Under the pieces are notes generated by a model. The model was not told the DNA's origin and ran no database searches. It saw only the letters and a program-made list of their open reading frames with translations. A program made the translations under genes and the position numbers. A stretch of DNA of 64,000 bases from Bacteroidota bacterium (GTDB taxonomy: Bacteria; Bacteroidota; Bacteroidia; M30B66): positions 62,001-126,000 of the forward strand of contig JAIXUS010000045.1 in NCBI GenBank assembly GCA_027483445.1. Direction: 5' to 3'. This document shows, one piece after another, positions 8,073 to 62,300 of this stretch; the first letter of the stretch is position 1; every line of letters begins with the position of its first letter.

Positions 8073-8089
8073 CGCACATTGATACCTTA

Positions 8090-31874: not shown

Positions 31875-32801
31875 ATGCCCCCCCCGTCCCTTTCGTCCAG
31901 CATCTCTCGACACCACCAAGCTCCCGCAGAAATTGAGGGCCAGGCGCTCAGGACGTCAAACTTCCTGCGCCAGGTCATTGAAAAAGACCTCGCCACCGGC
32001 ACCTACGCCCAGCGCCAATGGGGCGGCGGCCCGGGTGATGCCGCCTTCCACGACGCCGGCCAGCCCGACCCGGCCAAGATCCGCACCCGCTTCCCGCCCG
32101 AACCCAACGGCTACCTGCACGTGGGCCACGCCAAGAGCATCTGCCTGAACTTCGGCCTGGCGCGCGACTACGGCGGCGTCTGCCACATGCGCTTTGACGA
32201 CACCAACCCCGAGAAGGAAGAAAAGGAGTACGTGGACTCCATCCTCGACGCGGTGCAGTGGCTGGGTTTCAACTGGGAATCCAACTTCAACGGCAAGCAG
32301 GAAAGCCACCTGTACTACGCGTCGAACTACTTCGACTTCATGTACCGCGCGGCCGAATATCTTATCACCGCCGGCCACGCCTATGTGGACGAGCAGACAG
32401 CCGAAGACATGCGCATCAACCGCGGCGACTTCGGCAAGCCCGGCGTGGCCAGCAAGGCCAGCCGAACCGTCACCATCGAGATGACGGACAACATGCGCTA
32501 CACGCCAGCCGACATTCAAGTCAAGCAGGGCGAGACGGTGCGCTTCATCGTCAAAAACAAAGGCCAGGTCAAACATGAATTGAGTTTGGGCACCCAGCAG
32601 GAATTACTGGAACACCTTGAGCAGATGCGCAAGTTTCCAGACATGGAACACGATGAACCCAGCAAAGTCACGCTGGCTCCTGGAAAGCAGGGGGAAATCG
32701 TCTGGCAGTTCACAAAAGCAGGTGCCGTGAATTTTGCCTGCCTGATGCCAGGTCATTACGAGGCCGGCATGAAGGGTCAGGTCAAGGTCAACAAGAAATA
32801 G
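31875..32801 (+). CDS. Chimeric ORF: GlnS N-terminus fused to a type-1 copper protein
   Basis: A 308-residue ORF. Residues 1 to about 191 are glutaminyl-tRNA synthetase: [20 protein letters not shown] with the HIGH-type HVGH at 82-85, [10 protein letters not shown] and [20 protein letters not shown]. The KMSKS loop and anticodon domain are gone. From about 192 on it is a plastocyanin-like cupredoxin with full ligands H234, C289, H294 and M299. The join lies in FGKPGV (186-191), a string natural to both parents, so the two genes recombined in frame at microhomology. The cupredoxin has lost its signal peptide. Promoter and start are those of glnS. Confidence 0.85.
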
Positions 32802-33847: not shown

Positions 33848-34357
33848 TCAGCGCAAGGCGTTGAGCATTTTTTCGGCTTCTGGCCAGGGCAACCGGCGCT
33901 TACCAAGCTTCATTCTGTCAAGCGCCTTGAAGGCGTCGTCGACCGTCAGCAACTGGTTTTCAATCATGGCGCACAACAGCCCAATGGTGCCCATGACGTT
34001 GACCTGCTCCTTGTTGGCGACAATTCGCAAATTGGTGTCACCCGTCAGCAGGGTGCAGACCTCTTGCTTCGCAAGTGCCAGAGCTAAGTAGTCGTTGTGA
34101 CTGGGCTTGGGACCGTTTTTCGCTGGAAGCAGATGATTGTGCTGGGCTGGCAACTGCTGGGCATACGCCACGAAGTCGCCGCTGACCTCCATGATTTGTA
34201 GGCCCAGGTTTTCAAGTCCTGGGCTGCCCGGTTCAATTTCTTCGTAATACAGCAGGTCAGGGATGCCGAACTGCATGGGAAGCTGAAAGAGCGTGCCCAT
34301 CAACGCCCCGGCTTCCATGTCGATCAAAATATTGGCATCACTGATGAGCAACCGCAT
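33848..34357 (-). CDS. PIN-domain protein (putative toxin ribonuclease)
   Basis: A 169-residue PIN-fold protein with acidic metal-site residues: D7 in LLISDANILIDME, the EEIE segment near 41, and TLLTGDTNLR near 110. Such nucleases are usually toxins of type II systems. Its start overlaps the end of the XRE-ImmA gene by 20 bases, so the two are coexpressed and the regulator is the likely antitoxin or controller. The call is from motifs and pairing; target RNA unknown. Confidence 0.7.
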   Translation of the reverse strand: MRLLISDANILIDMEAGALMGTLFQLPMQFGIPDLLYYEEIEPGSPGLENLGLQIMEVSGDFVAYAQQLPAQHNHLLPAKNGPKPSHNDYLALALAKQEVCTLLTGDTNLRIVANKEQVNVMGTIGLLCAMIENQLLTVDDAFKALDRMKLGKRRLPWPEAEKMLNALR

Positions 34358-35417
34358 CCGATGACTCCAACTGACGTTCTTTGTGGAAGCGCATCATCGG
34401 GATGCCCAGCAGTTCCGCTGCTTTGGCTTCAGAGATGTATTGCTCTGCCAGAGCGCGGTATACCAACTGATCGAAGAGTCGGGGGTGTTCCTGAGGTAAT
34501 GGATTTCCGGGTTCGTTCTTGCGCCAGCCCTTGGCCGAAAAGCGTTTGAACATCATGAGATGTGCAGCATCGGTGATCACGCCACACTGCTTGGCTCGTT
34601 GCAGCCATCCAGACATCGATAGGCCGAACTCATGCTTGAGCACATAGAGCTCCTGCCACTCCAGCGCGTGGCGCTGCTGCCCAAGCAATTGATGCACGGC
34701 CACGCGTGGTGCCAAGAAGGCCCCCGCGAACCGGTCGCAGGCCTTTTCCTCATCAAGGCCAACAGCCAGCCGTCCCTCAAGCAGCAAATGCCCCAGTTCG
34801 TGAGCCAGCGTAAACCGCTGCCGATCGCCTGGCCACCGTTTTGAGACGGCCACGATCGGGAATTCCCGACCATCGTCGGTGCGGGCTTTGGCGGTCAGGC
34901 CAGAGAACCCTGGGTGTTCTTCATCAACGACAATGACCAGCAGACCAAGACCTTCAAGGGTGTCTGTGAGGTCTCCAATGGGGTTCATTCCCAACTGCCA
35001 AGCGTTGCGGGCCTGGTCGGCAAGTGCTTCGATCTCATCCAGCGCCTGGATGTGTTCAGGGAGTCCGACCGGAGGGGCGAACACCAATAGAGGTAATTCT
35101 GGAAAAGCCCCGAGAAGTTCCACACGCTTCTCCACCAACTCCACGACCTTGATCTTTAGTGCATCCTGTGCCGTCTTGCCAAAGGCCGCCGTTTTACGGA
35201 ACTCTGGCTCAAGCAGTTCGACGGAGTGGGTGCGAAAGAAGTATTCGGTGCGGACGTCGCAGGCACGCGCCAGCTTGAGGAGTTGAGAGGAAGAAGGCGT
35301 TAGCAACCCCTTCTCGTACTTCTGGATCGCTGTGTGCGAGACACCGACTTTTTCACCCAAAGCACCCAGGGTCAGACCAGCAGCCAATCGTGCTTGCCGA
35401 ATGCGATCTGCGATCAT
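34338..35417 (-). CDS. XRE family regulator with ImmA/IrrE metallopeptidase domain
   Basis: A 359-residue two-domain protein. N-terminal XRE helix-turn-helix (RLAAGLTLGALGEKVGVSHTAIQKYEKG, about 10-37) and C-terminal ImmA/IrrE zinc peptidase with HELGH at 206-210. A strong AGGAGGT precedes ATG 35417. It is translated together with the PIN protein. Such fusions act as antitoxins or stress-responsive repressors. An inverted repeat just upstream is its probable autoregulatory site. Confidence 0.88.
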   Translation of the reverse strand: MIADRIRQARLAAGLTLGALGEKVGVSHTAIQKYEKGLLTPSSSQLLKLARACDVRTEYFFRTHSVELLEPEFRKTAAFGKTAQDALKIKVVELVEKRVELLGAFPELPLLVFAPPVGLPEHIQALDEIEALADQARNAWQLGMNPIGDLTDTLEGLGLLVIVVDEEHPGFSGLTAKARTDDGREFPIVAVSKRWPGDRQRFTLAHELGHLLLEGRLAVGLDEEKACDRFAGAFLAPRVAVHQLLGQQRHALEWQELYVLKHEFGLSMSGWLQRAKQCGVITDAAHLMMFKRFSAKGWRKNEPGNPLPQEHPRLFDQLVYRALAEQYISEAKAAELLGIPMMRFHKERQLESSDAVAHQ

Positions 35418-35472: not shown

Positions 35473-36005
35473 CCTGGGTAGTCTTTGCCTTGGTGCGCGA
35501 CAGATGGCGCTATATGCTTGCCAGGACTGCTGGCCTTCAGTGGCCGACACGCGTGGTGGCAGGAATTTCTCCTAACCAGCGAGGAAGTTAGAGCAAAACC
35601 TTGGAAGCGCCCCGATTTCCTCATTCGGGGGGTGTTTTCAGGACAACAAGCCTCACACCTTCGGGATGAGTGTTTGCGGTGCTGCTATACTCCACCACCA
35701 TATACAAACGCCCGACTGCTCTCAGTTGGGCGTTTTCATTTGGGCTTCCCCCGGTACACGCGGGGAACAGGCGCATTGTGCGTGTGCCACGGGGTGGTCA
35801 CGGCTGGAGCCCACTTCGGCCAGTTCGACTCTTTTCTGCCCTCTGTTCTCTGCAAAGAGACGCCAACTCTTTCGCCACAGCACACGCACAATACCTTGAG
35901 CGACAACGACTTATGCGTGTGTCGATTTTTTGAGTTCGTCATGCCACTTGGAGGGGCAATCCATTAGCGGAACGGAGTTCAATACAGGATAGTCGGCACA
36001 CCATT
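35473..36005. other. Gene-free stretch between two minus-strand operons
   Basis: Several overlapping short frames exist but none has convincing protein character. It contains an extended -10 promoter-like box TGCTATACT (35683-35691) followed within 20 bases by a strong terminator (35709-35737), so a very short transcript could be made. The remainder (35740-36005) shows no clear structure. Confidence 0.45.
35709..35737 (+). terminator. Strong Rho-independent terminator
   Basis: CGCCCGACTG (35709-35718), loop CTCT, CAGTTGGGCG (35723-35732), then TTTTC. The 10-bp stem has one G-T wobble position. Confidence 0.8.
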
Positions 36006-36569
36006 TCATTCATCTTTGCCAAAGTGAATTAGTCCCGCCTGCTTTTCCAAAACAAGGTAATACCTGGGTGAGGTGATTAGCTTTTCGCCATGGTAATACT
36101 CAATGTAGAAACGAGGAATGAATGCCATTTCTCCAGCATTAAATTTACGAAGCGATGCTTCCAAATCTTCCTTGTATCCCGGTGCGGAGTTTGGCAACTT
36201 CATGACCAGATTCAATCCTGTGAACAGGTTGAGCGGCAAGGTGAATTTTGTGTTCTGAGGGATTTCCTGGGCGCCTGATATCAAGTTGCTTACAAAAACA
36301 CTTGGGGTGCTTTCGTCGGAGAAGATCACCTTTACGTTGGTCGCCGGTTTTCGACCAACGTTTTGCACGGTGACGAGGTAGTCGGTATCTTTTTTTTCAA
36401 CAGCAAGCGCTACGAGCTCTGGAGCATCCTCCGCCTGACGTCTATCGAAAAAGCTTCCGACTGTGTCCTGAAATTTTTTGTCGCCTTGTGCTTGTTGGTA
36501 AGACCCGTGGAACATCAGGACCGTCCCTAGTATCGAAACGATGCCTCCTACAATTTGCCACGCGTTCAT
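36006..36569 (-). CDS. Single-pass membrane protein of unknown function
   Basis: A 187-residue protein from ATG 36569. One N-terminal transmembrane segment (AWQIVGGIVSILGTVLMF), then a soluble beta-rich region (LVALAVEKKDTDYLVTVQNVGRKPATNVKVIF), which resembles an Ig-like/CARDB-type fold. No family recognised. It is the last of four minus-strand genes, 77 bases after the nuclease-domain gene; it may anchor or cap the system at the membrane. Confidence 0.55.
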   Translation of the reverse strand: MNAWQIVGGIVSILGTVLMFHGSYQQAQGDKKFQDTVGSFFDRRQAEDAPELVALAVEKKDTDYLVTVQNVGRKPATNVKVIFSDESTPSVFVSNLISGAQEIPQNTKFTLPLNLFTGLNLVMKLPNSAPGYKEDLEASLRKFNAGEMAFIPRFYIEYYHGEKLITSPRYYLVLEKQAGLIHFGKDE

Positions 36570-36646
36570 CTGACTCTCTGCCGAATATCTAGTTATAAAG
36601 ATCAACAGTACCAGCCCCGGCTGCGGTACTTTTGATGCTGGACGGT

Positions 36647-37894
36647 TTATTTTGGTACGTGGAAAACAAGCACGGTAACAATCAATTCGCGATTACTATC
36701 ACCATTTGCATGAAACACGTAGCGGAATCCACTTTCGTGAGGCCAGTTCACCATGCGTTTGAAGTTGCTGTGTGACTTGGCACTCGCGTCAACGCCTGTG
36801 CGAACCGTTGACATCTCGGTGCCGCGATTGAACACCAGGATTACCGTCTTGCCGTCTCGCCATGTGGCGTAGCTCAGTAGTTGATCGATAGCTTCTCCAA
36901 AGGCCTTTTGCCCCTTCCAGAACTTACACTCGGCGATAAAAACGTTGCGTTCGCCCTCGCGCAGCAGGATGTCGGTCTTGCCGGACATATTGAACGTCTC
37001 GCCCGTGGCCTTACCCTCAAACTGACCATTGAGCTGAACTAGAAAGTGCTGTCGAAGCGCTTCTTCGTCCATAGTCTTGAAGGCATCAGGGCTGCGCTCC
37101 ATGACAAGCGTCATGTCTTGCATGATTTTGAGGGCCTGTTCGTACTGCTCCATCGCCCAAGTCGGCTCCGGTGTGAACGGTGCGGCACTCGCCGGGGGAA
37201 GTGCAGGAATTGCCTTCTTGCGCGTAGTTGGTATCGCGTACGTTTTTGGCGCATCCTCGCGTCGCCTGACCGGTATGCCAAGGGATGCCGCACGCTGGGA
37301 CTGAGCCAGCAATCGCTCTCGCCGTTGCTGGATTGCCTGCTCCGCAATGCCGGCTAGCCCGTTGTTGTGCGCTTCAATCATTGCGCGTTGCCATCCGAGG
37401 TATTGCTCAATATCTGCCAGCATCCGATCGATCAATGGCCTGACATCGCGCGGCGCGTCAGCGGGCGAGTCGTAGCGAAGTACCAACTCGTTCTTCTCGA
37501 TGAGAGCTCGTGGTGGATTTGAGGTTGAGGTATTCGGTTGGGCATAGAACAACTCGGCGTCACCCTCGAAGGGCACGCGCACCTCGACCCGCTCTCCGGG
37601 AACCATGAACGGACGACTCTTGTCGTCAATCCAACGATTAGAGTCATAGCGAACATCGACCTGCATTTCGTGATGTTCGGCGTACCACTGGTCTCGGAGG
37701 AGATCAATCGGCTCCATACGGTACTTTGCTGCAAGATGGTTTTTGAGATCCTCGGGTGCTGTGTTGAGGAGCCTGTCAGGTGGAAGGCTTTCAACGTCCC
37801 TGCGGATTTCATCTGAGGTGCCACGCAGTGTTTGGCTAAGATCGTTCGTGCAGAACAGCAAGCCTTTGCTTTTATCAATACTTCTTCCGAACAT
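36647..37894 (-). CDS. Putative PD-(D/E)XK nuclease-domain protein
   Basis: A 415-residue protein. The N-terminal part (1-250) is of unknown fold with a proline-rich linker near 235-250. The C-terminal part has a restriction-endonuclease-like signature: GKTDILLREG (Asp) then VFIAECKFWKG (E-x-K, here ECK), followed by a helix with QLLSYATW and the strand KTVILVFNRG. This indicates DNA or RNA cleavage. The gene sits in an operon of unknown proteins next to XRE/ImmA genes and a recombinase, a common setting for phage defence. Whole-protein family not recognised. Confidence 0.65.
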   Translation of the reverse strand: MFGRSIDKSKGLLFCTNDLSQTLRGTSDEIRRDVESLPPDRLLNTAPEDLKNHLAAKYRMEPIDLLRDQWYAEHHEMQVDVRYDSNRWIDDKSRPFMVPGERVEVRVPFEGDAELFYAQPNTSTSNPPRALIEKNELVLRYDSPADAPRDVRPLIDRMLADIEQYLGWQRAMIEAHNNGLAGIAEQAIQQRRERLLAQSQRAASLGIPVRRREDAPKTYAIPTTRKKAIPALPPASAAPFTPEPTWAMEQYEQALKIMQDMTLVMERSPDAFKTMDEEALRQHFLVQLNGQFEGKATGETFNMSGKTDILLREGERNVFIAECKFWKGQKAFGEAIDQLLSYATWRDGKTVILVFNRGTEMSTVRTGVDASAKSHSNFKRMVNWPHESGFRYVFHANGDSNRELIVTVLVFHVPK

Positions 37895-37915
37895 TATTTC
37901 CTCCTTGGTTTGGTC

Positions 37916-38866
37916 TCATTCATCAGTGGATGCGCAAGGCATCCAGTATTCCCCAGGACGCTGTGTCGATTTCACAAGCGTGCGGTAGGCATGCAGCGGC
38001 CCCTCGTACTCAGGCTTTCCTTTGTTTTCCTTCTTGATCTTGAACAGGTCATTGGGTTTCGCGCTGTCCTGACCAGCCTTGAGCATGACTCGCTCCGCGT
38101 CCACCTTGACGCCCTTGAATGACCAGAGTGCCCTGAAGATGGCCGCCTGGCCATCCGTGCAGCGGATTGGCCCATGTGGCCAGTCATCAAGCGTCACCCA
38201 GCGGAAGTCTGACGAGAAGGGCCCTAGGTAGGATGCCCAAGGTTCAGCCACGATCAGCGGGGCTTGGCCCGCGTCGGAACCGATGCAGGCTATCCCACCG
38301 CCATAGAGGGTGAAGCGTTCCTCCAGCGGTAGCCACTCAACGCCTGCGGCAAATGGGTTGCCGCAAACCTCCCGCGTCTTGGGCGTAATGACTCGGATGT
38401 CGGCGCCTGCCACACGCACCCTGTCAAAGATGGACGGATCCGACCACAGTCGAGTCAGACTCCTGGCCAGCAACACCGGCGCGCGACGTGCATCGCCCAA
38501 CCGCCAGACGCCGTCACAGATGTCGGTGATGCCATCGCGACTTTCGATTTCCATGGCCATGCGCAGCTTTGACCTGAGCCAGCCTTCGTCCAACATCAGG
38601 GCCCTCCGATCCTCCGCCGTTAGCGATGTGGGACCGCACTCAGGGCACTGGCATATCTGGCCGCCCTTGCCGTCACCGAAGATTTGGCCGCTGCGCAGCT
38701 GGCAGTAAGGACACAGTGCGAATGTCTGGTTGATGACCGTCTGCTTGATCGCTGGGCCCAGGCTGGCGCAGGCATTCACCTCGGCGGGCGATAGCGCTGC
38801 TTTGAATACCGGTGTGCCACCCTTGAACAGCCGGCAGACCAACGACCATGCTTCGTGGGCCGACAT
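37916..38866 (-). CDS. Unknown protein with zinc ribbon
   Basis: A 316-residue protein. Near residue 52 lies CPYCQLRSG, followed by ICQCPECGP, a four-cysteine zinc ribbon. The middle region (ALMLDEGWLRSKLRMAMEIESR) is helical, and the C-terminal region has winged-helix-like segments (RCTDGQAAIFRALWSFKG). Probably a DNA-binding subunit. It starts 3 bases after the next upstream gene and ends 21 before the nuclease gene, so it is part of the same complex or pathway. No family recognised. Confidence 0.55.
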   Translation of the reverse strand: MSAHEAWSLVCRLFKGGTPVFKAALSPAEVNACASLGPAIKQTVINQTFALCPYCQLRSGQIFGDGKGGQICQCPECGPTSLTAEDRRALMLDEGWLRSKLRMAMEIESRDGITDICDGVWRLGDARRAPVLLARSLTRLWSDPSIFDRVRVAGADIRVITPKTREVCGNPFAAGVEWLPLEERFTLYGGGIACIGSDAGQAPLIVAEPWASYLGPFSSDFRWVTLDDWPHGPIRCTDGQAAIFRALWSFKGVKVDAERVMLKAGQDSAKPNDLFKIKKENKGKPEYEGPLHAYRTLVKSTQRPGEYWMPCASTDE

Positions 38867-38869
38867 CTA

Positions 38870-40102
38870 TCAGTCCTCGTAGGCAGGCTGCAGATTGGAC
38901 GTGTCGCTCGTGGCCATGTCCTGCGGGTTGAGCGTCTGTCCTTTGCTGAGGATGCCCAAGGCAACCAGGTAGCCTTCCAACTGGGCCTGCAGTGCTGCGT
39001 CGAACTTGTGCAGGTTCAGCCGGCCTTTGCGGGTGATCTCGATGGTGACCATCTTGGCTCTGGCCTTGCCTGGTTCGGGCGGGTAATACAGGTTGATCTG
39101 CGCGGCGGTGACCATCCAGTTCTCCGCCAATGGGCCTGGCAGCTTTTCTGCCAGGAGGTCGGTCACGCAACGGTGCTCGCTTGCCGCCATGGCCGTGCAG
39201 TCAACCTTCAACTGGTTGTCAGGACTCATCAGGCTGATGGACTTCACCTGGAGGACATTGAAACCATCGACCTGCGCCTGCGGTACATCGAACCCGAGGC
39301 GAAGTGCTGACAGATCCAGTGTCGGCGCCATCAATCGCTGCGCATCAAGGCTCGTGTGCAGCAGATGCTCGGCAAACGTCTTGAGCAGCATCTGGTGATA
39401 CTTGGTGCCGCCCTTGACTAAAGATCGGGTGACGCCAGTGCGGGCTGAATATTCCAACACCGAATGGATGTTGGGGTTGCCAACCCGGCGCTTGAGGTCA
39501 TCTCCCTGGAACTCCAGTTGGACCGTGGAAAGGTCTTTCACGTGCACGCTCAGCAGGAACACACCCGGGCTGCGCTCCATGACGTAGGCCTTGCTGCGGT
39601 CACCGCATTGCAACTCGCGCTGGTAAAAGGCCGAAACATCGGCGCGCAATGCCGCCAGCGCGGTATCCGATGTGTCGAGGATGGTTTTGACGCCCAGGTC
39701 ATGCTGCTGGGCGTTGGCAGACTGACGCTCGAAGTGGTCGACGTCACCGGCACGGTCGAACAGTTCAGGGTGCTTCACATACAGCCAGAACGAGCGATGG
39801 ATATCGCTTTTGCAGGTGGCCAGTGTCGTCAAAGCGGCCCCATTGCCGGTGGCCACCTGGAACATGGCCTGCGTTCCGGCCGAATCGCCGAGGGTGACGC
39901 TGGCACGCAGCTTGGCAGCCACCGTGTCACGCACAGCAATGTCCGGGCAGCCGAGCAAGGCTGCAATCAGGGCCTGCGTGGTTTCGGGCTTGTCGGTCCA
40001 TGCAAAGTCGTCGGGCATCAGCAGCCCATGCCCCGTGAGGAACTCACGCAAGGTGGCGTCCACGGGCAGCTCGTAGAGCAAATCAATCCAGGTTTTTTTC
40101 AT
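38870..40102 (-). CDS. Unknown 410-residue protein, first gene of a putative defence operon
   Basis: A soluble protein from ATG 40102, preferred over a longer frame to 40321 because the added residues lie in the promoter region. The N-terminal third is helical (LREFLTGHGLLMPDDFAW), the centre mixed alpha/beta, the C-terminal part beta-rich (WMVTAAQINLYYPPEPGKARAK). No catalytic motif was seen. It is transcribed away from the XRE/ImmA pair, first in a four-gene unit. Confidence 0.55.
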   Translation of the reverse strand: MKKTWIDLLYELPVDATLREFLTGHGLLMPDDFAWTDKPETTQALIAALLGCPDIAVRDTVAAKLRASVTLGDSAGTQAMFQVATGNGAALTTLATCKSDIHRSFWLYVKHPELFDRAGDVDHFERQSANAQQHDLGVKTILDTSDTALAALRADVSAFYQRELQCGDRSKAYVMERSPGVFLLSVHVKDLSTVQLEFQGDDLKRRVGNPNIHSVLEYSARTGVTRSLVKGGTKYHQMLLKTFAEHLLHTSLDAQRLMAPTLDLSALRLGFDVPQAQVDGFNVLQVKSISLMSPDNQLKVDCTAMAASEHRCVTDLLAEKLPGPLAENWMVTAAQINLYYPPEPGKARAKMVTIEITRKGRLNLHKFDAALQAQLEGYLVALGILSKGQTLNPQDMATSDTSNLQPAYED

Positions 40103-40299
40103 GTTGGCGGTCCATTCCGAGAAAGCGTCGGAGGTCTGCGGACCGTGAGGTCTGGATGCGCTGGCCAGCGACAAATCGATAAAATGACTAAACAGGTATC
40201 GCGCACAAGTAAAGTGACGTGATACAGCGTGATTGTGTCCCGCGCATTTCCGCTTGTCAATCAGGGTGGTACATGTGGCGATCATCCGTTTCTCGTTGC

Positions 40300-40327
40300 T
40301 ATACTCAAAAAGTCCAAACAATGAGTA
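40300..40327 (+). promoter_or_regulatory. Promoter -10 and inverted repeat ahead of the XRE gene
   Basis: TATACT (40300-40305) is a good -10 box. Overlapping it, TACTCA (40302-40307) is inverted as TGAGTA (40322-40327), 16 bases before the XRE start. The repressor could block its own promoter and, from the same 240-base region, the divergent operon. Confidence 0.5.
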
Positions 40328-40342
40328 AACAGGAGCATTGAC

Positions 40343-40684
40343 ATGGCTTCGGTATTCGGGGCACGCCTGCGGCGCCTCCGCGAGGCGAAGGGTTTAACCC
40401 TCCAACAAGTAGCCGACGCTGTCGGTTGCACCAAGGCCTACATCTGGGAACTGGAGATGAAGGAAGGCCAGCGTCCATCTGCCGAGCGCGTCCACGGCTT
40501 GGCCAAGGTGCTGGGTGTGACGATGGAGGATGTGATGGGCGAACCTCTGCAGCTGGTGCCCCAAGCAAGCCCTGAGGACGTCCAGTTCTTCCGGGAGTAC
40601 GCGGGCATGACCGACGAGGAGAAAGATCGCTACCGGCAGCTGCTCCAGATCGCGTTCCCTGACAAGGGCAAAGGCGGAGACTGA
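40343..40684 (+). CDS. XRE family transcriptional regulator
   Basis: A 113-residue repressor. HTH_3 domain at 8-65: LRRLREAKGLTLQQVADAVGCTKAYIWELE, then ERVHGLAKVLGVTMEDVMG. The short C-terminal tail (FFREYAGMTDEEKDRYRQLLQIAF) probably dimerises. Followed after 3 bases by an ImmA-type peptidase, as in the ImmR/ImmA pairs that control integrative elements, where the peptidase cleaves the repressor on DNA damage. Confidence 0.87.
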   Translation: MASVFGARLRRLREAKGLTLQQVADAVGCTKAYIWELEMKEGQRPSAERVHGLAKVLGVTMEDVMGEPLQLVPQASPEDVQFFREYAGMTDEEKDRYRQLLQIAFPDKGKGGD

Positions 40685-40687
40685 GCC

Positions 40688-41605
40688 TTGAGCACGGTGC
40701 AAGCCCTTACCGGTCCCATCGCGGCCAACAACATCCACAAGTGGATGCGCGCATGGCACCAAGGCTCTGCACCTGACGCCATCGACCTGGACCTTGTGCG
40801 CCAGATGCTGCCGGATACACCCTACGGACAGGGCGTTCGTGAAATCAAGGCACCGATGGCGCATGGCCTGGCCAGCTGTGAAGGCATGCTGGCGCGCAAC
40901 CCAAATGACGCAGCCGAGTGGGGCATTTTCTACAACGGCCATTCATCAGCACAGCGCCAGCGGTTCACCATTGCCCATGAACTGGGTCACTTTGTTCTGC
41001 ACCGCAGCCAGGGACCAAACTTCAGCTGTGACAAGGAGAGCATCTACTCCGGCGCTGACCGCATGCGGTCCATCGAGCGCGAGGCCGACGATTTCGCCAG
41101 CAACTTACTGATCCCCGGAGACTTGCTGCGCGACGCGATCTCCGACCGACGCATCGATTTGCATCACTTGAGTAACCTGGCCAAACGCTTTCAGGTCTCA
41201 TTTGAGTCCCTGTGCATCCGTTTCGTGAAGTTCACGCCGCAGCGCGCGATCCTGGTGTATTGGGACAACGGCTTTGCCAAGTACGAGTGGCGTAGCAGCA
41301 GTGCCAAAAAAACAGGTGCACGCATTCGGCGCACCGATGACCCGCAAGAGCCACTGGCGGAAACGCTGGCAGCTGACCCGGACATTGCGCAGGAGTGGAA
41401 TGGCGTCGACATGCCCGCCGATGTCTGGTGCCCAGAAGAATCTTCCAACATCACACTGACCGAGTTCAAGCACACCTACGGAGCGCGGGACCGCGTCCTA
41501 TCCCTGCTGTTGCTTGAGAGCGCCGCGCCGCGAACATGGGATAGGTCTTGGCAAGATGAAGATGTGTCGGACAGCTTCGATCAGTTTGGCTCACGTGGTG
41601 ACTAA
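40688..41605 (+). CDS. ImmA/IrrE family metallopeptidase
   Basis: A 305-residue protein with the zinc motif HELGH at 97-101 (RFTIAHELGHFVLHR) and the downstream acidic ligand region EREADDFASNLLIP, both typical of ImmA. Likely substrate is the XRE repressor encoded just upstream. The start is the TTG at 40688; no ATG lies close to the upstream stop, and later ATGs would cut into the domain's N-terminus. Confidence 0.85.
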   Translation: MSTVQALTGPIAANNIHKWMRAWHQGSAPDAIDLDLVRQMLPDTPYGQGVREIKAPMAHGLASCEGMLARNPNDAAEWGIFYNGHSSAQRQRFTIAHELGHFVLHRSQGPNFSCDKESIYSGADRMRSIEREADDFASNLLIPGDLLRDAISDRRIDLHHLSNLAKRFQVSFESLCIRFVKFTPQRAILVYWDNGFAKYEWRSSSAKKTGARIRRTDDPQEPLAETLAADPDIAQEWNGVDMPADVWCPEESSNITLTEFKHTYGARDRVLSLLLLESAAPRTWDRSWQDEDVSDSFDQFGSRGD

Positions 41606-41718
41606 CCCGCTATGCATAGAACGTTCTTCGACGAAGCGCGCTGATACCCGCTAAAACACGTTACGCGGAGTGCCCAGCATCCCTAGCATGAGAAGTGTTT
41701 TCCAAACGGACACTTACC

Positions 41719-41943
41719 ATGCAAAAAAACGAACTTATCTCCTGCGCGAACGACGATCGTCCGCGCCACCCCCATCAAGAAATCGCTGATCTCCTCGCCG
41801 TGGCGCTCCTGCGCCTGCGTGCCAAGAATTCTTCATGTGACAGTTCAGCCACTGCGGACGCAAAAGACGAGGTTGACCTTGGCTTTTCTGGCCACCAGCG
41901 CGTCAATGCGAACCCCTATCAACAAGAAGGAGTTCTCGCATGA
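41719..41943 (+). CDS. Small hypothetical protein, first in recombinase operon
   Basis: A 74-residue protein rich in Asp, Arg and His (NDDRPRHPHQEIADLLAVALLRLRAK), mostly helical, of unknown role. Its stop overlaps the DUF2924 start (ATGA), making it the first of four genes that overlap end to end. Confidence 0.55.
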   Translation: MQKNELISCANDDRPRHPHQEIADLLAVALLRLRAKNSSCDSSATADAKDEVDLGFSGHQRVNANPYQQEGVLA

Positions 41944-42407
41944 CGACACACGCAGCACAACCCGATGCCGCCAGCTTGGCTGCCAGGGTCGCCCAACTTC
42001 CGCACCTTCCCATGGACAATCTTTGGGCGCTGTGGGACCAGCATTTTGATGAGCGCCCGAATCACCATCACCGGACTTGGCTCGAATCGCGGCTGGCCTA
42101 CAAGATCCAGGAGCGTGCATTCGGTGCCCTAAAAGGATCTGTGCGCCGCAAGTTGGAAGAGATCGGTGAAACGGGCATCTTGCCACCGCGCCTGCGACGC
42201 GAGGCTGATCGCTTGCTGCCCGGAACCATCCTCACCCGTGTCTATGACGATGTTGAACACCAGGTGCTGGTGCGTGGCATGCGTGATTTCGAGTATCGTG
42301 GTCAGCGGTTTACCAGCCTCACGGCGGTGGCCAAAGTCATCGCAGGATGCCCATGGTCTGGCCCCATGTTTTTTGGACTCAAGACCAAGAAAAAGGAGGC
42401 AGCATGA
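41940..42407 (+). CDS. DUF2924 domain-containing protein
   Basis: A 155-residue basic protein matching DUF2924: LARVAQL-like start (here LAARVAQLPHLPM), LWALWDQHFDERPNHHHRTWLESRLAYKIQE, LPGTILTRVYDDVEHQVLV and FEYRGQRFTSLTAVAKVI. DUF2924 proteins are almost always next to serine recombinases, where they probably bind attachment-site DNA. The ends overlap both neighbours by 4 bases. Confidence 0.88.
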   Translation: MTTHAAQPDAASLAARVAQLPHLPMDNLWALWDQHFDERPNHHHRTWLESRLAYKIQERAFGALKGSVRRKLEEIGETGILPPRLRREADRLLPGTILTRVYDDVEHQVLVRGMRDFEYRGQRFTSLTAVAKVIAGCPWSGPMFFGLKTKKKEAA

Positions 42408-43819
42408 GGCCGCAGCGAAACATGCCAACGGCTCCTGCGCTTGCCCCACGCAAACGCTGTGCTGTCTACACCCGCAAATCGACCGACGAAGGCCTAGACC
42501 AGGACTACAACAGTCTTGAGGCACAACGCGATGCCGGGCTGGCTTACGTTGCAAGCCAACGGCACGAGGGCTGGACTGTCGTAGCTGACGGTTATGACGA
42601 CGGCGGCTATTCGGGTGGAAACATGGAGCGGCCAGGATTGCGTCGGCTGATGGCAGACATTGAGGCCGGTCGGATCGATATTGTGGTCGTCTACAAAATC
42701 GACCGGCTGACTCGAAGCCTGACCGACTTTGCCAAGTTGGTCGATGTGTTTGATCGCAACGGCGTGAGCTTTGTGTCTGTCACCCAGCAATTCAACACCA
42801 CGACCTCGATGGGCCGCCTGACGCTCAATATCCTGCTGTCCTTTGCGCAATTCGAGCGCGAGGTCACTGGCGAGCGCATCCGCGACAAGATTGCAGCAAG
42901 CAAGGCCAAAGGCATGTGGATGGGCGGCACCCCGCCTCTCGGATACGACGTCGTTGAGCGCAAATTGCTTGTCAACGAGCCGGAAGCCGACCTAGTGCGT
43001 TACATCTTCCGCCGGTATGCCGAGCACGGGTCGGCTGCAGAGTTGGTGCGTGAATTGGCCATCGAGGGGCGCACCACAAAGGCATGGCAGACGCAAAGTG
43101 GACATTTCCGAGAAGGGCGACCGATCGATCAGCAGTACCTTTTCAAGATGTTGCGCAACAGGATCTACCTCGGTGAAATCCAGCACAAAGACACGAGCTT
43201 TCCTGGGCAGCATGAGGCCATCATTGATCAGGACACTTGGGATCTCGTGCATGCCTTTGTCGATCGTCGCAAGCAAGGGCCACGCGAGAGCATCACGCAG
43301 CACCCGGCGCTGCTGGCGGGCCTGCTCCATGCTCCAGATGGCCAGTTGATGATTCACAGCTTCACACGCAAGAAGAACGGACGGCTGTACCGCTATTACG
43401 TGCCCTACCTGCACAAGCGGCGCAATGCGGGTGCCACTCTTGTACCCGGTGCCACGGATATCGGTCCTTTGCCTGCGGCCGAAATCGAAACGGCTGTGCT
43501 TGAGCAAATTCACCAGGCTCTCCGTGCGCCAGAGATGATGCTGGCGACATGGCGGTCGTGTCAGGGGTATCCAAGGGGTGTCCAATTGCAGGAAGCGCAA
43601 GTGGTCTTGGCCATGCAGCGCATTGGCGCTGTGTGGGACCAGTTGTTCCCCAAAGAACAGCAGCGCATTACGCATCTGCTGATCGAGCGGGTTCAACTCC
43701 ATGAGCGCGGGCTGGACATCCTGTGGCGCGAAGACGGATGGTTGGGACTGGGTGAAGACGTTGGCCGCCATCCGCTGGTGGAAGAGACCAGGGGCGCCGC
43801 AGAGGGGGTGTTTGCATGA
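42404..43819 (+). CDS. Large serine recombinase
   Basis: A 471-residue site-specific recombinase. Catalytic domain: Ser26 in RCAVYTRKSTDEG, SLEAQRDA, DDGGYSGGNMERPGLRRLMADIE, IDRLTRSLTDFAKL and QFEREVTGERIRDKI. A Recombinase domain (GYDVVERKLLVNEPEADLVRYIFRRYAEHGS) and a zinc-beta-ribbon-like region follow. It probably integrates and excises the neighbouring element. Attachment sites were not found in the window. Neighbouring DUF2924 and the following gene are its usual partners. Confidence 0.93.
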   Translation: MRPQRNMPTAPALAPRKRCAVYTRKSTDEGLDQDYNSLEAQRDAGLAYVASQRHEGWTVVADGYDDGGYSGGNMERPGLRRLMADIEAGRIDIVVVYKIDRLTRSLTDFAKLVDVFDRNGVSFVSVTQQFNTTTSMGRLTLNILLSFAQFEREVTGERIRDKIAASKAKGMWMGGTPPLGYDVVERKLLVNEPEADLVRYIFRRYAEHGSAAELVRELAIEGRTTKAWQTQSGHFREGRPIDQQYLFKMLRNRIYLGEIQHKDTSFPGQHEAIIDQDTWDLVHAFVDRRKQGPRESITQHPALLAGLLHAPDGQLMIHSFTRKKNGRLYRYYVPYLHKRRNAGATLVPGATDIGPLPAAEIETAVLEQIHQALRAPEMMLATWRSCQGYPRGVQLQEAQVVLAMQRIGAVWDQLFPKEQQRITHLLIERVQLHERGLDILWREDGWLGLGEDVGRHPLVEETRGAAEGVFA

Positions 43820-44301
43820 CATCGCATGCCAAACCAGTCATGCATCCGGACAATCCGAGGCTGCGCAATGTGCAAATCGATATTGGTAAGGATGCGCGCA
43901 ACTACGTCTCTGGGCAGCAACGCGTGACGATGGTTCCCCTGACTATCCGTCGCAAGCAAAACCGAAAGGTCATGACGCCACCGCCGGGGGAGACATCCGT
44001 ACTAAATAGCGGTGGCGAAGATGTCTCCATGATTCGGACGCTGGGCAAGGCCTTTTACTGGCAAAAGCTGCTCGATCAGGGCGAGTTCGCCACCATCCGG
44101 GACCTGGCCACTGCGATGAAACTTGAAGCCGGATGGGTGGCTGAGGTGCTGCGCATGACCACGCTGGCGCCAGACATCATTGAGGCCATTCTTGAAGGTC
44201 AACAGCCTCGGCATCTGAATCTGCAAACTCTACGTGGTCGGCATGAACAGTTGCCTCGGGATTGGCAGGGGCAGCGCAAGTTGTTTGGATTCTCGATTTA
44301 A
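43816..44301 (+). CDS. Recombinase-associated protein with helix-turn-helix
   Basis: A 161-residue basic protein starting inside the recombinase stop. The C-terminal half has ATIRDLATAMKLEAGWVAEVLRMTTLAPDIIEAILEG, a ParB/KorB-like helix-turn-helix. The N-terminal half is basic and beta-rich (VPLTIRRKQNRKVMTPP). Proteins of this form commonly follow DUF2924/recombinase genes; it may be the directionality or site-binding factor. Confidence 0.7.
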   Translation: MTSHAKPVMHPDNPRLRNVQIDIGKDARNYVSGQQRVTMVPLTIRRKQNRKVMTPPPGETSVLNSGGEDVSMIRTLGKAFYWQKLLDQGEFATIRDLATAMKLEAGWVAEVLRMTTLAPDIIEAILEGQQPRHLNLQTLRGRHEQLPRDWQGQRKLFGFSI

Positions 44302-44388: not shown

Positions 44389-44799
44389 TCAACCATATTT
44401 GAATATTTTGAGCATGATGTGGGTAACGCGAATGAATGTTGTAATTGCACAAACAGATATACCGATCCAAGCCAATGAGTACCATTCCATTTGTGTGTTC
44501 AGAAAATAACCAATAACATTGATACTACAAAAAAGAAGATTTACCCAGATTGCTTGACCGATATAAGAAACCAGATCCTCAATATAACCACTTCTTTTAA
44601 GTTCCTCGATTATTGGGGAGCTCATGCTTATCAGGATTGCCTTGCTGGTAGCAAGGAATCCTACAAAAATTCCAGAAACTGTTAAGGTGGCCGAGAGTAA
44701 TGAATCACCGGTCGGGAATGTGCCCTGCAGGCGTAACCATAAAGCTGACGCTATCAGGCCAAGCAAGTAAGGATAGATTCTCTCGAAAAATAGTTTCAT
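44389..44799 (-). CDS. Four-helix membrane protein, partner of the next gene
   Basis: A 136-residue integral membrane protein with about four transmembrane helices (YLLGLIASALWL, LTVSGIFVGFLATSKAIL, IWVNLLFCSINVIGYFL and WIGISVCAITTFIRV) and short loops. Lower GC than its neighbours. It starts 4 bases after the cytosolic partner gene. The architecture, small multi-pass protein plus soluble protein beside a recombinase, recalls two-gene membrane-effector phage-defence systems, but no family match is claimed. Confidence 0.6.
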   Translation of the reverse strand: MKLFFERIYPYLLGLIASALWLRLQGTFPTGDSLLSATLTVSGIFVGFLATSKAILISMSSPIIEELKRSGYIEDLVSYIGQAIWVNLLFCSINVIGYFLNTQMEWYSLAWIGISVCAITTFIRVTHIMLKIFKYG

Positions 44800-44803
44800 T
44801 TTA

Positions 44804-45664
44804 CTATCTCAATATCTGGCGCCATCCGTTCTTGGCGCGTACCAACGCTTTCCATCTTTCGTCCCGTGGATAGCGGAGATCAGCACCTAAAACAAGGTCG
44901 TTAAATTCAATTGAGAGCCTATGGGCGATTAGGTCAAGCACTTCAGTAACAGAGTCTTGATTTTCTTTTCCAGAAACCTCCAATTTTGTGATGGCGTCAG
45001 GGTTCTGGCCAAGGATTGAGCGGAGCGCCGAAAGGCCATCAAGCGCGTTCTGAGCGAGACTGCGCTGGCGCTCTCCTTGGACCGATATCTCGACTTTTAT
45101 CTTATCTGCTCCGTTCTGTCGGCCATAATCAATTGCCTCAGAAAGAGCGCGGCCTCGCTGCCTGTCTTGTTCAGACATTCTAGTGATGTCCAAACAAAAT
45201 GAGATTTTACGCGTTATTCCATGATTCAGAAGTCGGCGCTCTACATCCTCATCGTATTTTGGTTTGAAGGTGTACAGACTTATTTCTGTTCCGTCATATG
45301 CGCTCAGGTAATCTGCTATCGCCCCAGCCCTAACCCCAAAGTGATTGTATTCGACGAGAATATACCCGCTTGAAGGATCATAAAGGGCTGCAGTTTCTTC
45401 ACCAAATCCTTCTTCCTCGTCGAACTCAAAACCCTCTACTTCAGAGTCTCGACCGACCTTCCCCGGGCCGTTACTGGTTCTGATTCTTACGAAATCCATC
45501 AGCCACAGTCCATTTTGTTGCGATACAGACTCAGCCCTGAGTTCCACTTGATTTATCAGTCTGATTCGCTCTCTAAGGCTTTGTTCATTTTCAATTTGTA
45601 GCAATACCTCTTCGAGCATTCTGCTTCCATCGACGGCTTCAACTTTATAGGCGTGCACTTTCAT
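44804..45664 (-). CDS. Cytosolic protein of unknown function (possibly DUF6731-like)
   Basis: A 286-residue soluble, acidic protein. N-terminus MKVHAYKVEAVDG; then VSQQNGLWLMDFVRIR, an acidic linker (EGFEFDEEEGFGEETAALYDP) and YILVEYNHFGVRAGAIADYLS; the C-terminal half has IKVEISVQGERQRSL. The overall pattern reminds me of DUF6731 proteins, stated with low certainty. Lower GC than the adjacent phage genes, so acquired separately. It is transcribed first, with the membrane protein 4 bases downstream. Confidence 0.5.
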   Translation of the reverse strand: MKVHAYKVEAVDGSRMLEEVLLQIENEQSLRERIRLINQVELRAESVSQQNGLWLMDFVRIRTSNGPGKVGRDSEVEGFEFDEEEGFGEETAALYDPSSGYILVEYNHFGVRAGAIADYLSAYDGTEISLYTFKPKYDEDVERRLLNHGITRKISFCLDITRMSEQDRQRGRALSEAIDYGRQNGADKIKVEISVQGERQRSLAQNALDGLSALRSILGQNPDAITKLEVSGKENQDSVTEVLDLIAHRLSIEFNDLVLGADLRYPRDERWKALVRAKNGWRQILR

Positions 45665-45922: not shown

Positions 45923-46186
45923 ATGGCAACTACGGCAAGCCCCCAAACCCGGTCGTCCTATCCGGCGATCAACACCCTGGCACCCGGTGACCGGCGTGTC
46001 CTGAACGAAAACGAACTGGCCCAGCGCTGGGGTGTAAGCCCCAAGACACTCCAGCGCTGGCGCAGCGAGGGTCGTGGCCCTCGGTACCTCAAGCTCTCCA
46101 AGCGTGTCAGCTACCCGCTGGAAGCCATCCTCGATTTCGAGTACAGCGCGCTGCATGAGTCGACCGCTGAACGTGCGATGGCTTGA
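45923..46186 (+). CDS. Excisionase/AlpA-like helix-turn-helix protein
   Basis: An 87-residue DNA-binding protein of the MerR/excisionase HTH_17 type: LNENELAQRWGVSPKTLQRWRSEGRGPRYLKLSKRVSYPLEAILDFE. ATG 45923 follows AAGGAG by a normal gap. First gene of the early operon, directly after the operator array, so it may be the early regulator or the excisionase. Confidence 0.8.
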   Translation: MATTASPQTRSSYPAINTLAPGDRRVLNENELAQRWGVSPKTLQRWRSEGRGPRYLKLSKRVSYPLEAILDFEYSALHESTAERAMA

Positions 46187-46197
46187 AGGAGATGGTC

Positions 46198-46680
46198 ATG
46201 AACGATTTGTCCATCTTCCCCGCTGACATCGCCGAGATGTCGGCCGCTCAACTGGCCAAGTTGCCAGCCCACCAACTTTACGAGGTCGACACCAACTTGG
46301 ACCAGGCCATTGCTTGGCTAAAGAGTGCCCGCACCAAAGTGGATGCTGCCCTGGAGCAGCGCTTCGGTGCCCAGGGGCGTGAAGCCCTGCGCGATTCCGC
46401 ACGTGACTTCGGCACCGCCCACTTCAACCTCGACGGTTTGCACGTGAAGTTCGAGCAGCCCAAAAAGGTGTCCTGGGACCAGAAAAAGCTCAAGGCCATT
46501 GCCGAGCGCATCGTCGCTTCGGGCGAAGCCGTCGAGAGCTATCTCGACGTGAAGCTGGCGGTGCCCGAGTCCCGTTACATCAACTGGCCGCCGGCCTTGC
46601 AGCAGCAATTTGCCGACGCACGCACGGTCGAGGCTGGCAAGGCCACGTTTGAGCTCAGCCGTGATGAAGGAGGTGTGTGA
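46198..46680 (+). CDS. Phage early hypothetical protein
   Basis: A 160-residue helical protein (AAQLAKLPAHQLYEVDTNLDQAIAWL) of a kind often next to Sak4-like genes in betaproteobacterial prophages. AAGGAG precedes ATG 46198. Function unknown. Its stop overlaps the ATPase start. Confidence 0.65.
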   Translation: MNDLSIFPADIAEMSAAQLAKLPAHQLYEVDTNLDQAIAWLKSARTKVDAALEQRFGAQGREALRDSARDFGTAHFNLDGLHVKFEQPKKVSWDQKKLKAIAERIVASGEAVESYLDVKLAVPESRYINWPPALQQQFADARTVEAGKATFELSRDEGGV

Positions 46681-47519
46681 TGACGCTTCCAATCATTAGC
46701 GCATCGCAGCGTCTGGCAGAAAAGCAAGGCGTCAAGCTGGTGCTGCTCGGCAAGTCCGGCATCGGCAAAACCACTCAGCTCAAGACCCTGCCTGAAGACA
46801 GCACGCTGTTCGTGGACTTGGAGGCGGGTGATCTCGCGGTCAAGGACTGGCATGGCGACTGCGTACGCCCCGCCACCTGGCCTGAGTTCCGCGACTTGGT
46901 GGTGTTCCTGGCTGGCCCTAATCCTGCGCTGCCTGCCGACGCCCCGTACTCACAGGCTCATTTCGACCATGTGTGTGAACGCTATGGCGACCCGGCGCAA
47001 CTGGCCAAGTACGACACCTATTTCGTCGACAGCATCACGGTGCTGGCGCGTCTGGCACTGATCTGGGCCAAGGTCCAGCCGCAGGCCATGTCTGAGCGCA
47101 CCGGCAAGCCCGACACCCGCGGGGCCTACGGCCTCTTGGGCCAGGAAATGCTCACTGCGCTGACCCACCTGCAGCACGCCCGGGGCAAGCACGTGGTGTT
47201 TGTCGCCATCCTCGACGAGAAGCTCGACGACTTCAATCGCAAGGTGTTCGTGCCGCAGATCGAGGGCTCCAAAACCGCCGCCGAACTGCCCGGCATCGTC
47301 GACGAGGTGGTGACGCTGGCTGAGATCAAAGCTGAGGACGGTAGCAGCTACCGCGCCTTCATCACCCACACGCTCAACCCCTATGGCTACCCGGCCAAGG
47401 ATCGCTCCGGCCAGCTTGACCTGCAAGAGCCGCCCAACCTGCGCGCTCTCATTGGCAAGTGCGCCGCTGCCACCCGCATGCCCTCTGGCAACCCCACGTC
47501 TCAAACACCCAAGGAGTAA
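46680..47519 (+). CDS. Sak4-like phage ATPase (AAA_24)
   Basis: A 279-residue RecA-fold ATPase. Walker A GKSGIGKTTQLKTL at about 26-33, Walker B-like YDTYFVDSITVL, and a third motif in KHVVFVAILDEK. This fits Sak4-type single-strand annealing proteins that promote phage recombination with an SSB-like partner, encoded by the next gene. It starts at ATG 46680, overlapping the upstream stop. Confidence 0.82.
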   Translation: MTLPIISASQRLAEKQGVKLVLLGKSGIGKTTQLKTLPEDSTLFVDLEAGDLAVKDWHGDCVRPATWPEFRDLVVFLAGPNPALPADAPYSQAHFDHVCERYGDPAQLAKYDTYFVDSITVLARLALIWAKVQPQAMSERTGKPDTRGAYGLLGQEMLTALTHLQHARGKHVVFVAILDEKLDDFNRKVFVPQIEGSKTAAELPGIVDEVVTLAEIKAEDGSSYRAFITHTLNPYGYPAKDRSGQLDLQEPPNLRALIGKCAAATRMPSGNPTSQTPKE

Positions 47520-47522
47520 TTC

Positions 47523-48179
47523 ATGTCCAACAACTGGTCCGATTTCAACGACGCCGAACAACAGCAATCCTTCGATCTGATCCCTAAGGGCACGGTCGCC
47601 AAGGTCCGTATGACCGTGAAACCCGGTGGGTACGACGACCCCAGTCAAGGCTGGCTAGGTGGTTACGCCACCCAGAGCTTCGAGACCGGCAGCATCTTCT
47701 TGGCCTGCGAATTTGTCGTGCTCGAGGGCGAATATGCCCGTCGCAAGCTGTGGTCAAACATTGGCCTGTACAGCAGCAAGGGGCCCACCTGGGGCAACAT
47801 GGGCCGCACCTTTGTGCGGGCAGCCCTGAACTCGGCGCGCAACGTCCGCCCTGACGACAACACGCCCCAGGCTGCAGCGGCCCGCCGCATCCAGGGCTTC
47901 CATGAACTGGATGGTCTGGAGTTCGTCGCCCGCATCGACATCGAGAAAGACGGTCGCGGCGAGGCCAAGAACGTGGTCAAGATGGCCGTGGAGCCGGGTG
48001 AGCCTGAATACGCACCCACGATGGCTGGCGCTGGGTTCATTCCCAACCGTACGGCAGCGGCCCTGGTCGCAAGCCCAACCTCAGTTCCACCCGTATCCCC
48101 GACCGCAGTCTCAAGTGCAGCCGCGCCGGTATCAGCCCAACGCCCTGCGGTGTCCGGCAAGCCCGTCTGGGCGCAGTGA
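47523..48179 (+). CDS. Phage protein, probable ssDNA-binding partner of Sak4
   Basis: A 218-residue protein 3 bases after the Sak4-like gene. The N-terminal 140 residues are beta-rich with aromatic residues (SFDLIPKGTVAKVRMTVKPGG, FLACEFVVLEGEYARRKLW), and the C-terminal 50 are Ala/Pro/Ser-rich and disordered. Resembles DUF669-like/OB-fold phage proteins. Function inferred from gene order. Confidence 0.6.
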   Translation: MSNNWSDFNDAEQQQSFDLIPKGTVAKVRMTVKPGGYDDPSQGWLGGYATQSFETGSIFLACEFVVLEGEYARRKLWSNIGLYSSKGPTWGNMGRTFVRAALNSARNVRPDDNTPQAAAARRIQGFHELDGLEFVARIDIEKDGRGEAKNVVKMAVEPGEPEYAPTMAGAGFIPNRTAAALVASPTSVPPVSPTAVSSAAAPVSAQRPAVSGKPVWAQ

Positions 48180-48188
48180 GGGAGGGCA

Positions 48189-48707
48189 ATGAGATGCTGG
48201 GTCTGCTCACGACAGGCCCGGGGGTACGGCCATACCGACAACCGGCATGGCATTGGCAACCCCCGGCGCTATCCCATCGACTGGGTGTTCTGTTCCCACC
48301 GTTGCCAGGACGCGTTTCACGCGATGTATGGCAATTGGCTCCGGGTCAAGGAAGGTCGCATCAACAAGACGGAGGTCGCCATGATTGATCCGTCTGATGT
48401 CGAGCTGGCCGCCATGCGCCAGTGCCTCAAGGCCTTTGGCGAAGCGGCTGGCGAGATTGGCTTTGCCAAGCCGCTAGGTGACTACGCTGAGACTGAAGCC
48501 TTGCGTGTGATTGATGCGATCGTCACCTGCTACACGGACGCCATGGCTGCGCACCACGAAGCCACCAAGTTTCCGCCGGTGCGTGGCATGCCACCGACGT
48601 CAGATCCGTTGGCCAACCCGTTCGCTGATCTCGAGGATGACTTGCCTTGGGAAGAACCGAGGGCGAAAACGTCACACCCGCAACCGTCGAAGGGGAAAAA
48701 GTCATGA
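48189..48707 (+). CDS. DUF6511-like zinc-finger phage protein
   Basis: A 172-residue protein. The N-terminal CWVC then CSHRCQDAF (four metal-binding Cys in a CxxC...CxxxC arrangement) resembles DUF6511 HNH/McrA-type zinc ribbons. The rest is helical (AAMRQCLKAFGEAAGEIG) with an acidic end. Internal ATG 48381 begins a separate-looking helical domain. Role unknown. Confidence 0.6.
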   Translation: MRCWVCSRQARGYGHTDNRHGIGNPRRYPIDWVFCSHRCQDAFHAMYGNWLRVKEGRINKTEVAMIDPSDVELAAMRQCLKAFGEAAGEIGFAKPLGDYAETEALRVIDAIVTCYTDAMAAHHEATKFPPVRGMPPTSDPLANPFADLEDDLPWEEPRAKTSHPQPSKGKKS

Positions 48708-49441
48708 TCGACTTCAACTCCTCAGCAAGTGTCTCCGGCCAGTTGGAAGCATTGGTCGACGTCGGCTTGCAGCGACAGCGCGCCAAGCAAACGCCCCGGG
48801 CATACCTGGGTGCATCCAGGCTGGGGGCCTCGTGTGACCGAGCCCTCCAGTACGAATTCGCCAAGGCTCCGGTCGATCCTGGCCGTGACACCTCGGGGCG
48901 CATCCTGCGCATCTTCGAGCGTGGTCACGTGATGGAGGACTGCATGGTCACCTGGCTGCGTGAGGCCGGGTTTGACCTGCGCACCCGCAAGGCCGACGGC
49001 GACCAGTTCGGCTTCTCGGCGGCTGGTGGACGACTCAAGGGCCATGTCGACGGCGTCATCGTTGCTGGCCCCGAAGGTTTTGCCTACCCCGCCCTGTGGG
49101 AGTGCAAATGCCTCGGTCAGAAATCCTGGCGCGAGCTGGAGAAGCACAAGCTGGCGATTGCCAAGCCTATCTACCACGCTCAGGTGGTGCTCTATCAGGC
49201 TTACCTGGAGTTGCACGAGCACCCGGCGCTCTTCACGGCGATCAACGCCGACACCATGGAGATTTACACCGAACTCGTGCCCTTCGATGCGGTGCTGGCG
49301 CAGCGCATGTCCGATCGCGCCGTCAAGGTCATCACCGCCACCGATGCCGGGGAACTCCTGCCCCGCGCATTCCATGAATCCACCCATTTCGAGTGCCGGA
49401 TGTGCCCATGGCAGGACCGGTGCTGGAGGAGTCCCCTATGA
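48704..49441 (+). CDS. PD-(D/E)XK exonuclease (Cas4/RecB-like) of phage recombination
   Basis: A 245-residue nuclease. Core motif GRLKGHVDGVIV (Asp) then YPALWECKCL (E-x-K), with QVVLYQAYLEL (helix with Q and Y). A C-terminal Cys pattern (HFECRMCPWQDRCW) together with C44 suggests a Cas4/AddB-like Fe-S or zinc site. It probably resects DNA ends for Sak4-mediated annealing. It starts inside the upstream stop. Confidence 0.82.
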   Translation: MIDFNSSASVSGQLEALVDVGLQRQRAKQTPRAYLGASRLGASCDRALQYEFAKAPVDPGRDTSGRILRIFERGHVMEDCMVTWLREAGFDLRTRKADGDQFGFSAAGGRLKGHVDGVIVAGPEGFAYPALWECKCLGQKSWRELEKHKLAIAKPIYHAQVVLYQAYLELHEHPALFTAINADTMEIYTELVPFDAVLAQRMSDRAVKVITATDAGELLPRAFHESTHFECRMCPWQDRCWRSPL

Positions 49442-49653
49442 ATACCCCGTCTATGAATGACGTGCTGGGTGAGCGCCTGGTTGATGCGCGCGAGGCAGCG
49501 CATTGCCTCAATCTCCCGCTGTACTTACTCACCCACCCGAGCGAGCGTGAGCGCCTGAAGGTGCCGCATTACCGAGTCGGCAAGTTGGTGCGTTTCAAGC
49601 TCCAAGAGTTGATCGACTGGGTCGAGCGGCAAGGGGGTGCATCGGATGCTTGA
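49438..49653 (+). CDS. Helix-turn-helix domain phage protein
   Basis: A 71-residue AlpA/excisionase-like protein: LVDAREAAHCLNLPLYLLTHPSERERLKVPHYRVGKLVRFKLQELIDWVE shows the HTH_17 wing (YRVGKLVRFKLQEL). It overlaps the nuclease stop and the primase start. Might load the helicase or regulate replication. Confidence 0.7.
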   Translation: MNTPSMNDVLGERLVDAREAAHCLNLPLYLLTHPSERERLKVPHYRVGKLVRFKLQELIDWVERQGGASDA

Positions 49654-62299: not shown

Positions 62300-62300
62300 C

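Follow-up and report, generated by a model that had tools for sequence, protein, structure and literature searches.

A core gene pair of a temperate-phage lineage with a putative CapH/CapP switch and a nuclease gene as probable cargo

Gene content of the locus

Within the 64,000-nt stretch of DNA analysed here (the window), four open reading frames are packed on the minus strand between two XRE/ImmA loci and beside a serine recombinase, which raises the question of whether they form a single functional unit. A sequence-only reading had taken them for a multi-gene phage-defence system composed of a sensor, a DNA binder, a nuclease and a membrane part. We designated the four frames (40102–36006) A, B, C and D, in transcription order:

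40102–38870, minus strand: gene A, 410 aa; phrog_37634; predicted RdgC/RexA/CENP-N-type fold
38866–37916, minus strand: gene B, 316 aa; zinc ribbon (C52, C55, C74, C77) and C-terminal OmpR-like winged helix
37894–36647, minus strand: gene C, 415 aa; PD-(D/E)XK nuclease of the candidate defence family PDC-S54; accessory
36569–36006, minus strand: gene D, 187 aa from an ATG start; predicted single N-terminal transmembrane segment; accessory

All four frames are present as described, and A, B and C are tightly spaced, with gaps of 3 bases (A–B) and 21 bases (B–C), the latter containing a clear Shine-Dalgarno sequence (AGGAGG). Genes A and B are not chance frames, because dozens of homologues maintain them in conserved order, and neither is C, since residues D308, E322 and K324 of its product are invariant in 22 homologues. 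Gene D is the least well supported of the four; an alternative TTG start at 36605 would give a product of 199 aa. The flanking genes had also been correctly noted, and comprise an XRE-ImmA fusion (34338–35417), an XRE/ImmA pair (40343–41605) and the serine recombinase (42386–43819).

Genes A and B are conserved together

We located gene A in 59 distinct places (63 rows less four duplicates of the same contigs), most of them phage contigs, and it is carried by 46 IMG/VR viral contigs. Gene B is directly downstream of A, within 90 bases, in every one of the 59; the integrase gene is beside A-B in nearly all of them, and divergent capH and capP genes are beside A in 42. A scan based on the DUF2924 gene showed A-B in close lineage members, provided that their contig extended far enough upstream. 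One clade keeps A-B and lacks capH/capP (such as L056–L058, L060, L062–L067, L069, L073 and L076). Gene A was not found in plasmids or in isolated phage genomes, nor, outside the window's own bin, in searches of the genus (5 genomes) and the order (10 genomes). These results indicate that the pair belongs to the core gene set of a single temperate tailed-phage lineage.

The sequence-only reading had itself made co-occurrence the touchstone of its proposal, and C was found alongside A-B in two of the 59 places, the second being UBA1934 (L002), and D in one, the window alone. Genes C and D are thus optional passengers at the phage attachment end. Rather than a conserved four-gene system, the four genes constitute the left end of a temperate phage: the earlier list of parts was mostly right, and its unit was wrong.

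Gene C codes for a candidate defence nuclease

The product of C matched over its full length the PADLOC model PDC-S54, a single-gene phage-defence candidate (E 2.9e-165; residues 10–414 on model positions 4–407 of 410), for which we found no published test in the literature; here, by contrast, C is carried by a prophage, behind A-B. Searches of C against Pfam and PDB profiles gave no convincing match. Nevertheless, the D308/E322/K324 motif corresponds, by sequence motif alone, to the conserved D-x(n)-ExK active site, and a Q338/Y342 motif is likewise invariant, so that the proposed assignment of C to the PD-(D/E)XK nucleases holds. Homologues of C occur singly in many phyla of bacteria and archaea, including haloarchaea, and in other phages, and A or B were near C in none of the seven C-bearing viral contigs.

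We also considered whether C had recently moved between the phage of the window and that of UBA1934 (L002). This found no support: at four-fold sites C diverges by 0.49, much as A, B, capP, capH and the integrase gene do (0.52–0.61); the 91% identity of the C proteins therefore reflects strong purifying selection.

Elsewhere, homologues of C are sometimes found near defence genes, among them Lamassu LmuB, type IIG restriction and Orf5/HEC-06-like genes. This neighbourhood, the PDC-S54 match, the close spacing of A, B and C and their recurrence in UBA1934 would all suit a single anti-phage system made of the four genes, but C is otherwise solitary and adjoins A-B so rarely, and A-B are core phage genes, that we consider such a system very improbable. 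What survives of the defence reading is C itself, a plausible defence cargo. The roles of sensor and membrane part found no support: the latter would fall to D, which has a hydrophobic segment (Kyte-Doolittle 1.58 over residues 6–24) and for which a search returned no homologues.

Position of the operon within a prophage

Genes A to D are followed, across 41.9–64 kb of the window, by phage genes for integration, recombination, replication and packaging, and more structural genes, including a long tape-measure-like frame, are found beyond the window:

33848–35417: RosmerTA-like pair, RmrA (XRE and ImmA domains; PADLOC) and a PIN-domain partner, just outside the prophage
35691–35924: left prophage attachment end, with a match to the tRNA-Phe 3′-end junction of a sister prophage
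41940–42407, plus strand: DUF2924 protein, integrase partner (PF11149, 1.5e-40)
42386–43819, plus strand: large serine integrase (phrog_95 integrase, E 2e-105)
43816–44301, plus strand: small recombinase-associated protein, ParB-like by eye (phrog_14161 'recombinase', E 9e-44)
46183–51931, plus strand: phage early genes for a Sak4-like annealing protein, a Cas4-like exonuclease and a D5-type primase
59736–64000, plus strand: terminase small and large subunits and a portal-like gene; structural genes continue beyond the window

The match of 35695–35924 to the junction at the 3′ end of tRNA-Phe, into which the sister prophage is inserted, places the A–D operon at the attachment end and the RmrA-PIN pair outside the prophage. 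Other prophages of the A-B lineage adjoin tRNA-Phe or tRNA-Ala; at the left end of the prophage in the window, no tRNA was found. Comparison of the left end with a candidate right end near C67:143.7 kb (C67 being the window's contig) showed no shared core longer than 10 bases. A 72-base repeat, 96% identical, is present at 8083–8155 of the window and at C67:143723–143794, each copy closing a prophage structural module, and is perhaps a right end common to both prophages. The same contig contains two further prophages with A-B, their A proteins being 64% and 27% identical to that of the window. It also bears, at C67:197150–198757 and inside another prophage, a 77% identical copy of the RosmerTA-like pair.

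In 25 places A-B precede the early replication genes on the same strand, whereas in about 31 places, the window included, the block from A-B to the integrase gene (35691–44301 in the window) is inverted with respect to the early genes; this difference in orientation between phage clades was noted for the window and L051–L053 and L056–L076. Inverted in this way, the block has A-B outermost, and the stretch separating B from the attachment site becomes a cargo slot. This slot contains C and D in the window, an insertion sequence and metabolic genes in L030, and nothing in L034.

That the block inverts as one unit, and that A-B are kept with the DUF2924, integrase and ParB-like genes even in the clade without capH/capP, would also be expected if A-B served the serine integrase, for instance as excision-directionality or synapse factors. 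Nonetheless, the DUF2924 and ParB-like genes are better placed for such a task, being adjacent to and co-directional with the integrase gene, and the recombination directionality factors known so far are small proteins, so we regard a role of A-B as integrase helpers as quite unlikely.

Positions 44389–45664, which separate the ParB-like gene from the early genes, code for a DUF6731 protein and a 136-aa membrane protein, which are 94% and about 89% identical, respectively, at the same place in L034 and L035; this is a second cargo slot, possibly with a two-gene defence or exclusion system. Elsewhere in the window, one frame (31875–32801) fuses about 200 residues of the start of a glutaminyl-tRNA synthetase to a domain that looks cupredoxin-like by eye, and is a gene fusion or a rearrangement scar. 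The contig of the window (G000:C67) has 55–60% G+C and betaproteobacterial-type phages, whereas another contig of the same bin (G000:C45, L106) has 47% G+C and Bacteroidota-like genes; the window's contig may thus be misbinned.

Predicted structures of proteins A and B

Searches with A and B in Pfam, NCBIfam and PADLOC yielded nothing meaningful, and PDB profile searches gave no convincing match either. The sequence-only reading knew no family for any of the three large proteins; C belongs to PDC-S54 and A to phrog_37634 (E 1e-30), a phage protein family that carries no functional annotation.

The AlphaFold2 model of A (pLDDT 84.8, 44 sequences) had RdgC (E 1.2e-5) and CENP-N/CHL4 (E 2.6e-5) as its sole PDB matches below 1e-3 in Foldseek, and named RdgC phage proteins were among its matches at E<=1e-3 in a viral structure library. 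Realignment of the model (VIA) gave Z scores of 9.7 with CHL4/CENP-N, 8.3 with RdgC (2owy, across 219 residues), 7.0 with IML3 and 6.8 with YejK; the fold matches have low TM-scores (0.2–0.4), and Z values of 8–10 are modestly above the level reached by unrelated models. RexA, RdgC, IML3 and CHL4 have been grouped in one DNA-binding fold, the RexA-RdgC pair having a Dali Z of 4.4 (PMC11077077). The models thus give moderate support to the placement of A in the RdgC/RexA/CENP-N fold class, and, by analogy, A would most likely be a dimer holding DNA without sequence specificity.

We claim the fold for A and no membership of RdgC or RexA, because sequence comparisons show no link. In hhalign, the probability was 1.3% for A against the RdgC profile and 0.2% against the NA37/YejK profile; no Pfam family matched, PF04381 included; and BLASTP detected no similarity to lambda RexA (E 0.4). 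Lambda RexA was not among the best 50 rows of the structure match lists, which carries no weight either way. No RdgC was found in relatives of the genome bin. RdgC, the E. coli recombination-associated ring protein, is the best Foldseek match of A, but A differs from it in having a partner gene and a phage setting.

In protein B, cysteines C52, C55, C74 and C77 are invariant in 44 homologues, and residues 212–314 of its model (pLDDT 86.2) match OmpR/ToxR-type domains with Z 5–6.7, in agreement with the earlier description of B as a zinc-ribbon protein with a DNA-binding domain. B would contribute the zinc ribbon and a sequence-reading winged helix.

A putative CapH/CapP switch at the A-B promoter

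The XRE/ImmA pair upstream of A consists of an XRE repressor and an ImmA/IrrE protease with an HEXXH motif, situated beside a divergent operon:

40343–40684, plus strand: CapH-like XRE repressor, divergent from A (PADLOC capH, E 1e-22)
40688–41605, plus strand: CapP-like ImmA/IrrE (M78) metalloprotease (PADLOC capP, E 5.8e-54; PF06114, 2e-23)
40232–40260, minus strand: predicted sigma-70-like A-B promoter, TTGACA-N17-CACAAT, matching the consensus and conserved among relatives
40196–40225: inverted repeat GTATCGCG-N14-CGTGATAC, predicted operator of the CapH type, immediately past the −10 of the A promoter

The HELGH motif of the CapP-like protein is invariant. The inverted repeat overlaps the expected start site of the A-B promoter and is the sole match within the window, there being none in 100 shuffles. 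In close-clade relatives, three positions of the capH–A interval again carry its half-sites, one of these positions adjoining the predicted capH promoter, and the half-sites are enriched in relatives, with 52 occurrences against a shuffle mean of 6 (from mononucleotide shuffles, and in sequences that are related to each other). CapH/CapP pairs control adjacent operons in response to ssDNA, repressing them until CapP binds ssDNA (PMC13373217). As in CBASS and other operons, both proteins match the PADLOC models, and the pair is divergent from the operon, with an inverted repeat on the promoter; here, however, the neighbour is a phage gene pair instead of CBASS, and the switch is a predicted one. 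From the layout of the locus, we infer that CapH/CapP would control the A-B promoter. Such control would not be universal in the lineage, since a clade of A-B phages lacks capH/capP.

A protein of this fold class beside a repressor gene also recalls Rex. RexA-like proteins of temperate phages adjoin a CI-like repressor and exclude other phages (PMC11077077), and A-B could likewise be a superinfection-exclusion system in which A, made by the lysogen, senses phage DNA intermediates and stops the competitor with B. Lambda RexA and its temperate-phage homologues resemble A in being products of phage genes that adjoin the lysogeny repressor and, by prediction in the case of A, in belonging to the RdgC/IML3/CHL4 fold class. 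But rexAB is co-transcribed with cI, whereas A-B points away from capH and seems to be under CapH repression. Also, RexA has 279 aa against the 410 of A, and the partner of A is the zinc-ribbon winged-helix protein B and not RexB; no RexB-like membrane partner was found in the A-B operon, where the one predicted segment, in D, is not conserved. We thus consider Rex-like exclusion unlikely.

Proposed role of A-B

We propose, with confidence about evenly balanced, that A and B are a core phage pair switched by CapH/CapP and acting on recombination or on lysis-lysogeny, with C as cargo. A-B form a core two-gene operon beside the serine integrase gene, with a predicted strong promoter that faces away from the repressor gene. 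The CapH-like repressor would shut this promoter through the inverted repeat at the start site; upon appearance of ssDNA from damage, infection or induction, the CapP-like protease would cut CapH and A-B would be made. The pair would then act on recombination, in the way that RdgC acts on RecA, or, like RexA, on the lysis-lysogeny switch. The nuclease gene C would be a cargo insertion downstream of B, dependent on read-through for its expression, with D as a strain-specific extra. The proposal is built on what was observed of gene content, co-occurrence, phage context, fold matches, the nuclease motif and the unique inverted repeat; from these we infer the regulation, the DNA binding and all the functions.

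More tentatively, and at somewhat less than even chances, A-B might be an unrecognised phage module, in which a DNA binder of the RdgC/RexA fold and its zinc-ribbon winged-helix partner, switched by CapH/CapP and ssDNA, control recombination or lysis-lysogeny across the lineage, while the same promoter would also bring an optional nuclease cargo into play.

What reads from sequence as a defence-like operon can prove to consist of core phage genes with cargo. CapH/CapP has been recognised as a switch by which DNA damage controls bacterial immune operons; in this phage lineage, a pair of that type seems to serve as the lysogeny switch, its first target being a protein of the RexA/RdgC fold. If this is true, the fold shared by RdgC, RexA and kinetochore proteins would gain a new sequence family, and lysogeny control, recombination control and immune regulation would be tied to one set of parts.
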